A stretch of DNA of 64,000 bases from Nostoc favosum CHAB5714. GTDB taxonomy: Bacteria > Cyanobacteriota > Cyanobacteriia > Cyanobacteriales > Nostocaceae. The stretch's first letter is position 1. Every line of letters starts with the position of its first letter. Where the stretch lies: NCBI RefSeq assembly GCF_020829495.1, contig NZ_JAIVFQ010000031.1, positions 1 to 64,000 of the forward strand. Reading direction: 5' to 3'. Below are positions 8,313 to 49,592 of this stretch, one piece after another. The translations under genes were made by a program, and so were the position numbers. The notes beneath the pieces are model-generated. The model ran no database searches and was not told where the DNA came from. It was given only the letters and a program-made list of their open reading frames with translations.

Positions 8313-8563
8313 TACACATCGTGATGTAATATTGTACAGATAGAACGATTTACCAGCCTTGGAGAAATTGCTGGGGAAGAAGTTTTGAGTGAGTTGTTTA
8401 CTTTGTATTCAGAACCAGTGATTCGGCTGAATTCGGTCAAAATATTAAGTTGACAAGCACAACTTGGTAGCGCATACTTTGTTTCGCCTAGAAAAGCATA
8501 TCTTTAATTTAACTCTTCTGTAAGTTGTGGAACCGCTACAGTTGCAATATTGATAACGATAGC
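8313..8563. other. Intergenic stretch with a possible decayed coding fragment
   Basis: On the + strand bases 8334-8453 form an open frame without a start codon (translation includes RFTSLGEIAGEEVLSELF) ending in TGA. It may be the tail of a lost gene, but I do not recognise it. Nothing else is evident. Confidence 0.3.
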
Positions 8564-44919: not shown

Positions 44920-45018
44920 TGCTACTTGTGTGAGGAGCTATATTACTCCTTTATCTTATCTGTCACCGAAAATCATAGAGTGCAAACCCCTGCTTTCAAG
45001 TAGCGATCGCATAACTAG

Positions 45019-45393
45019 CAACTTGGGTTACTAGTAGGTGGATTTCTCCTATACGCTTTAGTATATCTGGGCTTCGCCTTCGTACAAGCACCTTGGCAAG
45101 CCTGGGGATTGTTTGCTCTTTATGGTCTACATATGGGTATGAGTCAAGGCTTACTGTTGGCGCTAGTGGCAAATAATATACCTGCAAAATTGCGCGGCAC
45201 TGCTTTTGGATTTCTCAACTTGGCTATAGGATTAGCGCTTTTACCTGCAAGTTTACTAGCTGGTGGGTTGTGGCAAACACTGGGAGCAAAGGCAACATTT
45301 ATCGCTGGAAGCTTGTTTGCGTTGGCAGCTGTATTGTTATTAGTTACAGAAACAAATATTAAACTCGACCAAAAGCAAAAATGGTATCCTTGA
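45019..45393 (+). pseudogene. Major facilitator superfamily transporter, C-terminal remnant
   Basis: Open frame from after a TAG (45016-45018) to TGA at 45391-45393, no start at a sensible position. VGGFLLYALVYLGFAFVQAP, GMSQGLLLALVANNIPAKLRGTAFG (MFS motif C/A-like) and GLWQTLGAKATFIAGSLFAL are the last four helices of an MFS protein. The first ~300 residues are missing. The fluoride riboswitch begins 10 bases after it, so the riboswitch promoter probably lies within this remnant. Confidence 0.8.
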
Positions 45394-45402
45394 TTTAATA
45401 AT

Positions 45403-45474
45403 GGCGATGGAGCTCGCCAAAACCGCCTTTCCGGTACAAGTTAAATTCATCACTGGAAGGCTGATGGCTCCTAC
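45403..45474 (+). promoter_or_regulatory. Fluoride riboswitch (crcB motif)
   Basis: GGCGATGGAGCTCGCC (45403-45418), AAAACCGCC, a variable stem, then AGGCTGATGGCTCCTAC (45458-45474) match the crcB-motif consensus, including the GATGG-GTTCGCC stem with A-ACCGC and the closing TGATG-CTCCTAC. A following pair GGGAGAGTAGG / CCTGACTCTCC (about 45491-45532) may be the expression platform. Fluoride binding normally turns downstream expression on. It precedes an antiporter and a CLC-F gene, which matches the expected regulon. Confidence 0.93.
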
Positions 45475-45575
45475 TTTCTTCGCTAACTGCGGGAGAGTAG
45501 GGCTTGGCTAAATGCATTACCTGACTCTCCTGTAGAAAGTGTAAGTCTACAGATTGCACCTCAAGGAGTCATGGG

Positions 45576-47210
45576 ATGTTAGCCAGTGTATTGTGGATTT
45601 TAATGATGGGCTTTTTTGTGGGTCAACTTGCCCGCCGTTTAGGCGCTCCGCCTTTAATTGGCATGATTTTAGTGGGGATTATTCTTGGCCCCCAAGTTCG
45701 GAATGTCATCAGTGAAGATGTGTTGGGTGCTGCTGATGAGTTAAGAACTTTGGCGGTAATGATTATCCTGATGAAAGCCGGACTGGGTTTAGATCGAGAA
45801 AAACTGGCTCAACAGGGAACTGTGGCGCTGCGATTGGGATTTTTGCCAGCCGCAACCGAAGCGATCGCGATCGCTTTTGCTGCTATGGTAATTTTTAAAT
45901 TTGACTTTCCCACTGGGTTACTTTTGGGCTGTGTGATTGGCGCTGAATCTCCTGCTGTAATTGTCCCAGGAATGCTGAGGTTAAAAAGTTTAGGCTGGGG
46001 TGTCACCAAAGGAATTCCCGATGCAATTTTAACTGGTAGTGCCTTATCTGATGTGCTGCTATTACTAGTCTTCAGCCTACTGCTGAGTTTCTTAGGTGAC
46101 GGAGGTGTTGAGCAGATTACCCTACCTGGGGGATTCACTTTGACTGCTCTACAACTGCTGCCGTTCCAAATTATTATGCAAATATTGCTGGGAGTATTGT
46201 TTGGCTATTTAGCAGCTCGTTTATTAGTTTTACTATTAACTAAACAAAACTGGACTCAGAATGCGATTCAAGATACTGTAATTGCTGCCAGTTTAGCCTT
46301 ATTCTTGGTAATTGCCGCTCATGCTTTGCCTTACTTTTCTGGTTATTTAGCAGCAATGGCTATGGGGTTTTTCTTAATTGAATTAGATACTCCCCTAGCC
46401 CGAAGATTACGCGGCGGATTTGACAGTTTATGGATAGTAGCTGAGATTTTTTTGTTTGTCTTGTTAGGGGCAACTATTCAACTGCAAGTATTGGAAAAGA
46501 TTCTATTACCTGGCATTATAATTCTGGCAATTGGTTTACTAATTGGTCGGATGCTGGGTTGGTATCTGTCAACTTTGGGTAGTAATTGGAATTGGCGCGA
46601 AAGATTATTTTTACTCCCAGGAAACTCAGCAAAAGCTACAGTCCAAGCTGCCATTGGAGCAATACCCCTCTCCCAAGGAATTGCGGGGGGTGAGATAATT
46701 TTAGCGATCGCAGCTCTTTCAATTTTAATCACTGCACCTTTAGGAGCTTGGGCAACCATGACTTTTGCGCCTAAATTGCTCACCAAAGGCGAAGTTGACC
46801 CGACCAAAGTCACAGTTGCTACTCGTACCTTATTATTGGCAGCCGTGGATACATCGAGTTTAGCTACAGAAGTTTTAACAAAAGTAGCAGATTTAGCACG
46901 CCGCAGTAATGGAGAAGCGATCGTCTTGCATGTAGTTAACACCTCAAACCAGCAAGATATCGAACAAATAAAAGAACAAGCTAAACAGTTTTTATCGGAT
47001 ATCAGATATGAGTTTTTGACTGTTACAGGCACAGTACCAGAAGAGATTATTCGCATTGCCGAGGAGTTTCGTGTAACTGCGATCGTTATGGGAAAACGCG
47101 GACATCAACCTTGGGAGGAAGTGCTGGTTGGCTCCGTATCACAAGCAGTTTTAGAAGCCAGTCTAATACCTGTAATCTTGCTGGAAAATCAGGCATTAAA
47201 GTCAGTTTAA
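45576..47210 (+). CDS. Cation/proton antiporter (CPA family) fused to a universal-stress-protein domain
   Basis: 544 residues. About 12 hydrophobic helices (1-400): LIGMILVGIILGPQVRN, IGAESPAVIVPGMLRL and LFLLPGNSAKATVQAAIGAI are the exchanger core. Residues about 410-540 form a Usp domain (TLLLAAVDTSSLATEVL, ATP-loop-like VMGKRGHQPWEEVLVGSVSQ). AAGGAG lies 8 bases upstream of ATG 45576. Under the fluoride riboswitch and followed by CLC-F; NhaA/CPA-type antiporters are known members of fluoride regulons, probably restoring pH or ion balance disturbed by HF entry. Confidence 0.9.
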   Translation: MLASVLWILMMGFFVGQLARRLGAPPLIGMILVGIILGPQVRNVISEDVLGAADELRTLAVMIILMKAGLGLDREKLAQQGTVALRLGFLPAATEAIAIAFAAMVIFKFDFPTGLLLGCVIGAESPAVIVPGMLRLKSLGWGVTKGIPDAILTGSALSDVLLLLVFSLLLSFLGDGGVEQITLPGGFTLTALQLLPFQIIMQILLGVLFGYLAARLLVLLLTKQNWTQNAIQDTVIAASLALFLVIAAHALPYFSGYLAAMAMGFFLIELDTPLARRLRGGFDSLWIVAEIFLFVLLGATIQLQVLEKILLPGIIILAIGLLIGRMLGWYLSTLGSNWNWRERLFLLPGNSAKATVQAAIGAIPLSQGIAGGEIILAIAALSILITAPLGAWATMTFAPKLLTKGEVDPTKVTVATRTLLLAAVDTSSLATEVLTKVADLARRSNGEAIVLHVVNTSNQQDIEQIKEQAKQFLSDIRYEFLTVTGTVPEEIIRIAEEFRVTAIVMGKRGHQPWEEVLVGSVSQAVLEASLIPVILLENQALKSV

Positions 47211-47284
47211 ATCAGTAAATAGAGTAACGAATTGGAAACCGCTTGTATCAAGCATTTTTCTCTGTGTCCTAATTACGAATCAGT

Positions 47285-48613
47285 ATGAAACAGTTTCGTC
47301 AATTTGAACCATTTATTGCATTACCACACCTAATTAAATGGTTGCCTATTTCCGTTGTAGTTGGCATTCTTGCTGGAACTGCTTCTGCGGCTCTTTTAGC
47401 ATCCTTGGAATGGGCAACTGATTGGCGAGAATCGCATCGGTGGATTATCGCTTTGCTGCCCCTTGGTGGCTTCTTGAGTGGTTGGATTTATCATCAGTTT
47501 GGGCGGACTGTAGAAGCCGGGAATAACCTTTTACTTGAAGAAATCCATAACCCTAAAAGTGTTATTCCCTTCCGTATGGCTCCTCTGGTTTTGCTAGGAA
47601 CAGACCTGACCCATTTATTTGGAGGTTCAGCAGGCCGTGAAGGCACAGCATTGCAAATGGGTGCTTCTTTGGCAGACCAATTAACTAGAATATTACATTT
47701 TAAAGGAGCAAATCGGCGAATTTTATTAACCGCCGGTATCAGTGGAGGATTTGCTTCAGTTTTCGGTACTCCCTTAGCTGGAACCGTATTTGGTCTAGAA
47801 GTTTTAGCAATTGGTAAAATTCATTATGATGCTCTTTTCCCTTCTTTAATTGCTGCGATCGTTGGAAATCAAGTAACCTTACTATTGGGTTTGCATCATA
47901 CCGCATACCGACACGCTCCCTCTATACCGACGCTCACAATTTGGGGACTGATTGCAGCGATTATCGCAGGTGCAATTTTTGGAATAGTAGCGAGGTTATT
48001 TGCTAAAGTAACTCACAAAATTAGTCACTTCTTTAAAACGAAGATATCTTATCCTCCAATGCGTCCTTTAATTGGCGGTGTGATAATAGCAGCAATTGTT
48101 GGGTTGACTGGTACAACTAAGTATATTGGACTTGGTATCCCTACTATCGTTGATTCTTTCTATACTCAGCTACCTCCTTGGGATTTTGCAGCAAAATTGG
48201 GTCTGACTGCTCTAACTTTAGGAGCAGGTTTTAAGGGAGGAGAAGTAACACCTTTGTTTTTTATTGGTGCAACTTTAGGTAACACTTTGTCGTTGCTTTT
48301 AGCATTACCTGCACCACTTCTAGCAGGAATGGGATTTGTGGGTGTGTTTGCGGGTGCAGCAAATACACCTATAGCATCGACTCTAATGGGAATTGAATTA
48401 TTTGGTCTGGAATCAGGGATATTTATTGCTATTGGCTGTGTAGTAAGCTACCAATTTTCAGGTCATTCTGGAATTTACTCTGCACAACGAATTGGGTTGA
48501 GTAAATACTCTGCTGTATATTTAGAAGAAGGGATAACTTTGGGTAATTATGGGCAACCAAAAATTTATTTACCTGATGATAGTGAAAAAGAAGGAAGTAA
48601 TTATCAGGAATAA
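47285..48613 (+). CDS. CLC-F type fluoride/proton antiporter
   Basis: 442 residues, CLC fold with about 12-14 hydrophobic segments. GGSAGREGTALQMGASLAD (about 118-136) and GAGFKGGEVTPLFFIGATLG (about 318-337, in place of the chloride-type GxFxP) are found in the fluoride-specific branch, and the first anion loop reads AGNNLLLEEIH rather than GSGIP. Exports F- from the cytoplasm in exchange for H+. Starts 74 bases after the antiporter gene, same strand, under the fluoride riboswitch. Confidence 0.9.
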   Translation: MKQFRQFEPFIALPHLIKWLPISVVVGILAGTASAALLASLEWATDWRESHRWIIALLPLGGFLSGWIYHQFGRTVEAGNNLLLEEIHNPKSVIPFRMAPLVLLGTDLTHLFGGSAGREGTALQMGASLADQLTRILHFKGANRRILLTAGISGGFASVFGTPLAGTVFGLEVLAIGKIHYDALFPSLIAAIVGNQVTLLLGLHHTAYRHAPSIPTLTIWGLIAAIIAGAIFGIVARLFAKVTHKISHFFKTKISYPPMRPLIGGVIIAAIVGLTGTTKYIGLGIPTIVDSFYTQLPPWDFAAKLGLTALTLGAGFKGGEVTPLFFIGATLGNTLSLLLALPAPLLAGMGFVGVFAGAANTPIASTLMGIELFGLESGIFIAIGCVVSYQFSGHSGIYSAQRIGLSKYSAVYLEEGITLGNYGQPKIYLPDDSEKEGSNYQE

Positions 48614-48652
48614 TTTATTGATGTAATTAATGGATAATTGGGAAAATGACAA

Positions 48653-48871
48653 ATGAATAATCATGGATTTGGCAAACTAGTTACCTTTCTAAATCAATTG
48701 GAACAAGAGAGAATTAGTTACACTTTGGCCCATCATCGGGATGAGACTATTATGGTGAATGTGGCAGTGGCTGGTGAACGATGGGAAGTGGAATTTTTTG
48801 AGGATGGTTCGGTTGAGGTAGAACGATTTGTTATACCAATTCTGTATGAAGATGCGCTAAACCATATTTAA
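48653..48871 (+). CDS. Small conserved-looking acidic protein
   Basis: 72 residues, ATG 48653, 39 bases after the CLC-F stop. LVTFLNQLEQERISYTLAHH at the start, then three-strand-like VNVAVAGERWEVEFFEDGSVEVERF. The pattern helix plus beta strands with a GERWEVEFFEDGSVEVE core suggests a genuine compact domain. I do not recognise a named family. It may be co-transcribed with the fluoride genes, but proximity is the only evidence. Confidence 0.65.
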   Translation: MNNHGFGKLVTFLNQLEQERISYTLAHHRDETIMVNVAVAGERWEVEFFEDGSVEVERFVIPILYEDALNHI

Positions 48872-48920
48872 GTACAAGAAAGAAGAAAGAGAAACGAACC
48901 GCAAAGGACGCAAAGGACAC

Positions 48921-48983
<63 letters not shown>

Positions 48984-48993
48984 TTAAAAGGGT

Positions 48994-49278
48994 TTGGCGC
49001 AGCCTCACAAAGAAATGGTATTAGTAGTGGAGAGATTAATGCAAAAGAGGTTTTTAGTGATTTCTTTGCTATGTATTCAGAGTTATCAGGATAAAAAGAG
49101 TAATCAAGAATTAGCCAAAATTAAAATTTTAAGTGAGCATGTAAATCGCAGGCTGAAGGTGTTTAAAATTTTGTCCCTTACTTATAGAAATCGCCGAAAA
49201 AGATTTAGTTTGCGGTTTAATCTGATTGCTGCTCTCTACAATTACGAGCTTTTTCTCCCCAAAATCAAATCTTCCTGA
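48994..49278 (+). pseudogene. IS5-family-like DDE transposase, C-terminal remnant
   Basis: The frame ends HVNRRLKVFKILSLTYRNR, RKRFSLRFNLIAALYNYEL, the closing helix region with the catalytic Glu (SEHVNRRLK) of IS5-type transposases. Upstream of about 49080 the similarity fades. The TAG/TGA end is followed 2 bases later by GACTTTTGCAAGAGGTC, the expected type of terminal inverted repeat. The rest of the element is missing. Confidence 0.72.
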
Positions 49279-49335: not shown

Positions 49336-49592
49336 AACAAGCAAATGCTGTCGCTCAACAAGCAAATGCTGTCGCTCAACAAGCAAATGCGTACGCTCAA
49401 CAAGCAAATGCGTACGCTCAACAAGCAAATGCTGTCGCTCAACAAGCAAATGCGTACGCTCAACAAGCAAATGCTGTCGCTCAACAAGCAAATGCTGTCG
49501 CTCAACAAGCAAATGCTGTTGCTCAACAAGCAAATGCGTACGCTCAACAAGCAAATGCGTACGCTCAACAAGCAAATGCGTACGCTCAACCT
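49336..49592. repeat. 21-nt tandem repeat array, about 12 copies, two alternating variants
   Basis: Unit AAGCAAATGC(TGTC/GTAC)GCTCAAC, period 21. Variants with TGTCGCT and GTACGCT are interspersed (the second creates a GTAC site). All six frames stay open, producing meaningless open frames on both strands. Confidence 0.93.

Follow-up and report, generated by a model that had tools for sequence, protein, structure and literature searches.

The locus examined here raises the question of what a cation/proton antiporter does behind a fluoride riboswitch when the next gene encodes a CLC-F type fluoride exporter. It lies in a 64,000-nt stretch of the cyanobacterium Nostoc favosum CHAB5714 (contig NZ_JAIVFQ010000031.1, positions 1 to 64,000; hereafter the window) and comprises a fluoride riboswitch, a gene for an antiporter fused to a universal stress protein (Usp) domain, and a CLC-F gene. 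The antiporter probably acts as a stand-alone substitute for the known exporters CrcB/Fluc or CLC-F, because it and CrcB avoid each other across cyanobacterial genomes and because transporters have been lost in both directions at the Nostoc locus. The operon would then serve fluoride-inducible defence, with two transporters as alternatives.

The operon and its transporters

As read from the sequence, the operon is of a known kind, a fluoride riboswitch followed by an antiporter-Usp fusion and CLC-F. Its features are as follows.

45394-45480, plus strand: fluoride riboswitch aptamer (crcB motif); RF01734, 54.1 bits, full model 1-64
45470-45501, plus strand: anti-aptamer hairpin CCTACTTTC/GGGAGAGTAGG, overlapping the aptamer 3' strand; a sequence reading, with a similar hairpin in most other leaders
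45492-45530, plus strand: alternative helix GGAGAGT (45492-45498) / ACTCTCC (45524-45530); sequence, and covariation in 14 of 18 leader clusters
45522-45571, plus strand: start hairpin TGACTC (45522-45527) / GAGTCA (45566-45571), over part of the Shine-Dalgarno sequence AAGGAG (45563-45568); sequence, covariation in 16 of 18 clusters, and modelled accessibility
45576-47210, plus strand: antiporter-Usp, 544 amino acids (aa), an NHA2/NhaP-like transporter with a C-terminal Usp domain; PF00999, PF00582, nearest solved relatives NHA2 7p1i/7b4l, and a structural model
47285-48613, plus strand: CLC-F type fluoride/proton antiporter, 442 aa; PF00654, and 6d0j at E 1.1e-61

RF01734 is the sole Rfam match in the window at the gathering threshold (a score of 34), and the search with this model, which the original prediction had proposed as a check, returned the match at 45394-45480. 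The original prediction of an operon under a fluoride riboswitch, with an antiporter fused to Usp ahead of a CLC-F gene, is supported by this match and by those to PF00999/PF00582, PF00654 and 6d0j.

The CLC gene matches PF00654 (Voltage_CLC) with an E value of 1.1e-71. Among solved structures, its nearest relative is 6d0j, a CLC-type fluoride/proton antiporter, aligned over residues 22-403 of 442, whereas the best other CLC reaches only E 9.6e-9. By these matches the gene is nearer to the fluoride than to the chloride CLCs and is assigned to the CLC-F type; it lies behind a fluoride riboswitch.

The antiporter and CrcB avoid each other

We compared the distribution of the transporters in 368 cyanobacterial genomes with a completeness of at least 95 (the class set). 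The antiporter is present in 133 of these genomes, CrcB in 254 (251 over the Pfam cut-off) and CLC-F in 23, where CLC-F means close matches only (62% identity or more); seven genomes with weaker CLC hits (27-29% identity) were not counted, and all seven carry CrcB. The antiporter and CrcB occur together in 43 genomes, the antiporter only in 90, CrcB only in 211 and neither in 24, which corresponds to an odds ratio (OR) of 0.054 (p = 1.8e-30). Stratified by family over the 355 labelled genomes, the OR is 0.036 (p = 1.4e-17); placing all 13 unlabelled genomes, which have neither gene, in one family would raise it to no more than 0.20. Some genera switch between the two genes without overlap, with 15 antiporter-only and 4 CrcB-only genomes in g123, and 7 and 12 in g77. 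Both CrcB and CLC-F are missing from 82 of the 133 antiporter genomes versus 14 of the 235 genomes without the antiporter, and 82 of the 368 genomes have the antiporter and no other of the three transporters. Fluc/CrcB (PF02537), a protein unrelated to the antiporter and without a match in the N. favosum genome, seems to fill the same functional slot across cyanobacteria.

The riboswitch points to the same gene. At class scale, 74 riboswitches over the cut-off were found in 69 of the 368 genomes; 61 stand directly before the antiporter, 9 before CLC-F and 4 before neither. The aptamer also lies just upstream of the antiporter in 55 of 80 named antiporter loci.

A set of 59 near relatives, made up of the N. 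favosum genome, 34 congeners and 24 genomes of the order outside the genus, was searched with thresholds of E up to 1e-60 for the antiporter and up to 1e-40 for CLC-F. It contains the antiporter in 24 genomes, CLC-F in 23 and CrcB in 20. Among the 24 genomes outside the genus, where CLC-F was not found, 11 have the antiporter without a CrcB match, 12 have CrcB without an antiporter match and 1 has neither. The 34 congeners divide into CLC-F only (16), antiporter with CLC-F (6), antiporter only (3), antiporter with CrcB (3), CrcB only (5) and none of the three (1, a genome that is 72% complete). All 12 congeners that have the antiporter carry the riboswitch directly upstream of it, as do 5 of the 11 antiporter genomes outside the genus.

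Two further occurrences were noted. A riboswitch with an antiporter at about 72% identity was found in two metagenome-assembled genomes labelled Methylobacter and Methylomicrobium (L201, L202), as a result of transfer or contamination. At G178:C1:1824456-1826038, the antiporter match lies in two separate pieces beside CrcB, so that the antiporter may be decaying in this CrcB-bearing genome.

Loss in both directions at the Nostoc locus

All three antiporter-only congeners retain a stump of the lost exporter beside the antiporter. G017 and G031 retain the antiporter behind the riboswitch, with only a tail of 40 codons left of CLC-F; in G009, the antiporter persists, and the CrcB sequence found next to it amounts to no more than about 36 codons. 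The neighbours of the antiporter at the 80 named loci, which partly overlap the congener set (L126 is G017, L134 is G031, L162 is G009 and L175 is G018), were searched with single queries in flanks of up to 5 kb. CLC-F is a neighbour at 9 loci (3 of these are short pieces, and one is 325 of 442 residues) and CrcB at 13 (4 of these are pieces).

The opposite loss is seen in congeners where CLC-F stands directly behind the riboswitch. All 16 such genes examined, leaving out a 17th in G004, begin at the start place of the antiporter, which is deleted. Their frames range from 409 to 468 codons, two of them extending to the end of the fetched locus. The CLC-F matches of G001, G006 and G007 contain one stop each, and since the frames are 441, 437 and 446 codons long, this stop lies near the CLC-F end. 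The frame of eight of the 16 genes includes 5 to about 42 codons of the antiporter, joined via four different junctions, a fusion that sets these genes apart from the CLC-F of PDB 6d0j. At least two of the eight (L039, L057) have no CLC-F ATG, so the antiporter start must serve. The placement of CLC-F at the antiporter start fits a leader whose control would include the start codon, and it fits either transporter being sufficient.

An altered ion site and a Usp domain in the antiporter

The antiporter-Usp protein matches PF00999 (Na_H_Exchanger) over residues 14-388 (E 6.8e-35) and PF00582 (Usp) over residues 421-535 (E 3.1e-19), and residues 24-407, in its transporter part, can be aligned with NHA2. 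The predicted structure, which has a mean predicted local distance difference test (pLDDT) score of 71 and unreliable parts that include residues 125-154 (below 50), matches NhaP and NHA2 with a Foldseek probability of 1.00. In sequence and predicted NhaA-type fold, the protein thus resembles the NHA2/NhaP cation:proton antiporters (PF00999; PDB 7p1i, 7b4l, 4cz8), from which it differs in its C-terminal Usp domain.

The ion site of cation/proton antiporters (CPA) is usually an Asp-Asp or Asn-Asp pair. This pair is not found in the antiporter-Usp family: the Phe-Asp-Asp of NHA2 (FDD in the alignment) is replaced by Leu-Ser-Asp, here with Ser158-Asp159, and Glu124 occupies the position of a Val in NHA2. 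All 80 named relatives conserve E95, E124, S125, S158, R325 and K353, and residue 159 is Asp in 78 and Asn in 2 of the 80 (Ser-Asp 78, Ser-Asn 2). As judged from the alignment, the altered pair is a departure from the usual motif; taken by itself, it does not reveal the substrate. Nucleotide-binding Usp domains have the pattern G-2x-G-9x-G(S/T). The antiporter-Usp protein carries this pattern as G506, G509, G519 and S520, kept in 78 of the 80 named relatives. The Usp domain is therefore probably nucleotide-binding, and nucleotide control of transport through it, as the original prediction proposed, is plausible.

Predicted start-codon control by the leader

The aptamer is complete, and as in the fluoride riboswitches described in the accessible part of PMC11077080, an alternative hairpin competes for its 3' pseudoknot strand. 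As read from the sequence, the 3' strand of the aptamer (CCTAC) doubles as the 5' arm of the anti-aptamer hairpin, in which it pairs with GGGAGAGTAGG. The opposite, 3' arm can alternatively pair with the downstream ACTCTCC, which is possible only when the hairpin is open, and the downstream strand (TGACTC) can also pair with GAGTCA across the Shine-Dalgarno sequence. What appears to be different here is the expression platform, which seems to act at the start codon, and the position of the riboswitch, which in Cyanobacteriia is mainly ahead of the antiporter.

To compare the helices across leaders, 56 leaders were reduced to 18 clusters, and the fit of each strand to its own partner was compared with its fit to the partners of other clusters. 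The own partner fits better than the swapped ones in 14 of 18 clusters for the alternative helix (p = 0.0016); with the start hairpin, this holds in 16 of 18 (p = 0.0023). Because both downstream helices covary, the leaders support start-codon control. The anti-aptamer hairpin shows little covariation in the pair count (41 distinct hairpins; a mean of 9.80 of 11 positions paired vs 9.56 after re-dealing the arms), from which 4 of the 56 leaders with an unrecognised 3' arm were omitted and in which the arm is misplaced in about ten rows; this hairpin is nearly invariant and so gives no covariation test. Keeping the aptamer strand free while folding the window leader, as a model of the bound state, raised the mean probability that the start region is unpaired from 0.17 to 0.52, a change that none of 30 shuffles equalled.

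In one congener (L054, G028), the leader between the aptamer and the CLC-F start is about 180 bases longer than in the other congeners, perhaps owing to an inserted element.

Proposed mechanism and alternative explanations

Fluoride enters the cell as HF (hydrogen fluoride), which dissociates inside. Without fluoride, the anti-aptamer hairpin would take the aptamer 3' strand, and the downstream strand would cover the Shine-Dalgarno sequence and start region, so that no translation occurs. Once fluoride binds, the anti-aptamer hairpin would be blocked, its 3' half would pair with the downstream strand, and the start would be freed. The induced operon would then yield the CLC-F exporter and a transporter of NhaA fold with a probably nucleotide-binding Usp domain, the latter acting as a self-sufficient fluoride-defence transporter that replaces CrcB/Fluc or CLC-F in cyanobacteria and not as a helper. 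How it would act can be stated only tentatively: it may export fluoride directly with proton coupling or, with only slightly lower probability, exchange cations for protons and so remove the pH gradient trapping fluoride, neither being more likely than not. It is likewise a tentative suggestion that antiporter-Usp represents a further kind of exporter beside Fluc/CrcB and CLC-F, with an NhaA fold, an altered ion site (Glu124, Ser158, Asp159) and Usp gating, and serves as the main exporter in many cyanobacteria.

The antiporter could instead be an accessory that restores the pH or ion balance under fluoride stress while CLC-F or CrcB exports. Fluoride-riboswitch-linked antiporters have already been reported, and the accessible part of PMC11139923 ranks Na+/H+ antiporters next to exporters in frequency among the classes linked to the riboswitch, attributing their presence to pH homeostasis; the antiporters of earlier surveys cited there are very probably the same kind of gene, and that part of the source does not mention an avoidance of CrcB or CLC-F. 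The CPA-type fold would suit an accessory, as would the antiporter's place upstream of CLC-F, within 400 nt and on one strand with it, in 7 of the 10 class genomes with both genes, and the nearby CrcB at 13 of the 80 named loci. However, an accessory should co-occur with exporters, which the 82 antiporter genomes without either known exporter contradict, and the exporter stumps sit beside an antiporter with an intact frame; we therefore regard this explanation as unlikely. Shared ancestry or habitat, and not functional equivalence, could also underlie the avoidance, since one family (f29) contributes 88 CrcB-only genomes and the control for relatedness is stratification by family. Yet the association holds within families and some genera, and loss has occurred in both directions at one Nostoc locus, which makes ancestry a distinctly improbable cause. 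A separate alternative concerns the leader, which might work by transcription termination and not at the start codon. Well-studied fluoride riboswitches end with intrinsic terminators (PMC11077080), and terminators frequently overlap the crcB motif (PMC2864571), as far as the accessible parts of these sources go. In the window leader, however, no T-run follows the hairpin, and none of the 3 terminator-like sites in 45000-49100 overlaps the riboswitch hairpin; the start hairpin covaries, and the CLC-F genes that replace the antiporter retain its start site. Termination is thus a doubtful account of this leader.

Several observations weigh against the antiporter as a substitute under start-codon control. 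The avoidance is incomplete, as the 43 genomes with both the antiporter and CrcB (of 368) indicate, and in at least 9 of these 43 CrcB lies no more than 200 bases downstream of the antiporter. Mixed genera also exist, with both genes in 5 of 6 labelled genomes in g72 and in 3 of 6 in g61, and 14 of the 368 genomes have none of the three transporters. No riboswitch over the cut-off stands directly upstream in 72 of the 133 antiporter genomes, under strict filters. The fold and the relatives of the protein are those of cation/proton antiporters, and would suit a function in pH balance just as they would fluoride export. Over the 56 leaders, the change in accessibility is small (+0.058 vs +0.025 in shuffles, p = 0.007); it exceeds +0.1 in 16 leaders, and some leaders show the opposite direction.

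If the antiporter does substitute for CrcB or CLC-F, the 82 of 368 genomes without a known exporter do possess a defence transporter, and a CPA-fold protein has acquired a fluoride task. So far as the literature searched tells, such an interchangeable role in fluoride defence would be a new reading. We found no statement that the antiporter replaces CrcB in this literature, which includes the accessible parts of PMC11139923, PMC11077080, PMC2864571 and PMC5533749; the 2012 reports on fluoride riboswitches and CLC-F lie outside the search, so no priority is claimed.

A disrupted gene downstream of CLC-F

Behind CLC-F, an open reading frame (ORF) of 72 residues had been put forward as a candidate new fluoride component. 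The ORF has no match in Pfam, NCBIfam, PADLOC or PDB at the thresholds used, and we reject the candidate: it is the 5' part of a 98-aa gene cut by a dispersed element.

48653-48833, plus strand: interrupted 98-aa gene, 5' part (60 codons), called as the 72-residue ORF reaching 48871
48834-49020, plus strand: inserted dispersed element, 187 bp; TTA target duplication; inverted, imperfectly matching ends of 36 nt (48833-48868 / 48986-49021)
49021-49082, plus strand: resumed 3' part of the 98-aa gene, with 92% identity over 62 bases to an uninterrupted congener gene

The insertion and its TTA duplication were located by alignment with an uninterrupted congener, and the 36-nt ends are 78% complementary. 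Because the insertion starts at 48834, residues 61-72 and the stop of the ORF, its last 12 codons, are element sequence. The tail of the ORF matches many other places in the N. favosum genome: the DNA at 48825-48900, which covers one element end, has 42 matches, itself included. Thirty of these 42 loci were compared, and all 30, including that of the window, match the element, 28 of them through both ends, with identities from about 72% up. GAAA-type runs were seen by eye at about 48921-48981, within the element. Of 13 congener loci, a count that excludes a duplicate contig of G024 (L022), 12 have the gene at a length of 98 aa, and the 13th has it shortened in a different way.

A genuine new fluoride-response protein is suggested by the position of the ORF 39 bases downstream of CLC-F on the same strand, and by the gene following CLC-F, the antiporter or CrcB in 10 of the 13 congener loci (with 98 aa in 9). 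This is contradicted for the window copy, which is split by the element, and the congener loci share one chromosomal neighbourhood wherever the flanks are readable, between an M16 peptidase and a Uma2/aminotransferase pair, so that adjacency to fluoride genes is weak evidence of a common task. Nor did the co-occurrence proposed as a check show a positive link to CLC-F: the 98-aa family occurs in 7 of 22 congeners with CLC-F (15 lack the gene) vs 6 of 12 without, and CLC-F occurs in 7 of 13 congeners with the family vs 15 of 21 lacking it. Four of the 13 loci have the 98-aa gene without riboswitch, antiporter or CLC-F, one of them with CrcB in the CLC place. We therefore consider a fluoride-response role for the 72-residue ORF extremely improbable. 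Across 218 genomes of the class, the family was found in 3, including that of N. favosum.

In L027 (G024:C318), CrcB lies at contig positions 7982-8323, about 100 bp upstream of the 98-aa gene, where CLC-F sits elsewhere, and no fluoride riboswitch was found in the genome (G024). The 3' part of the 98-aa family is represented by a second fragment at 8331-8441 of the window, about 40 kb away.

The upstream gene and other features

The riboswitch is preceded by a remnant of a major facilitator superfamily (MFS) transporter gene.

45109-45393, plus strand: 3' remnant of an MFS transporter gene, the upstream neighbour of the riboswitch; PF07690 at 30.4 bits, below the cut-off of 33.4

The remnant spans 94 codons from its called start and ends just ahead of the aptamer. 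The suggestion that the riboswitch promoter was captured from, or lies within, this decayed gene is not supported. An MFS match is present in 16 of 17 congener loci examined. Seven of these have an open MFS frame of about 400 codons in the same place, ending 40-159 nt upstream of the aptamer motif, and since undecayed genes lie close to the aptamer as well, we reject a promoter captured through decay. Two other loci have a shorter frame ending 42-44 nt upstream of the motif, six have the MFS gene about 2.2-2.4 kb upstream of the aptamer, and one further MFS locus has no aptamer. A scan of 45000-49100 for promoters and terminators gave counts no higher than shuffles (9 vs 8.4 and 3 vs 4.0, respectively).

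The gap between the antiporter and CLC-F contains a weak terminator-like hairpin at 47241-47253 (GCTTG TAT CAAGC, then ATTTTT), and the frequency of such sites is not above that in shuffles. By eye, CAACAAGCAAATGC-like repeats were seen to form an array at about 49342-49590, downstream of the operon, where both strands have open frames.

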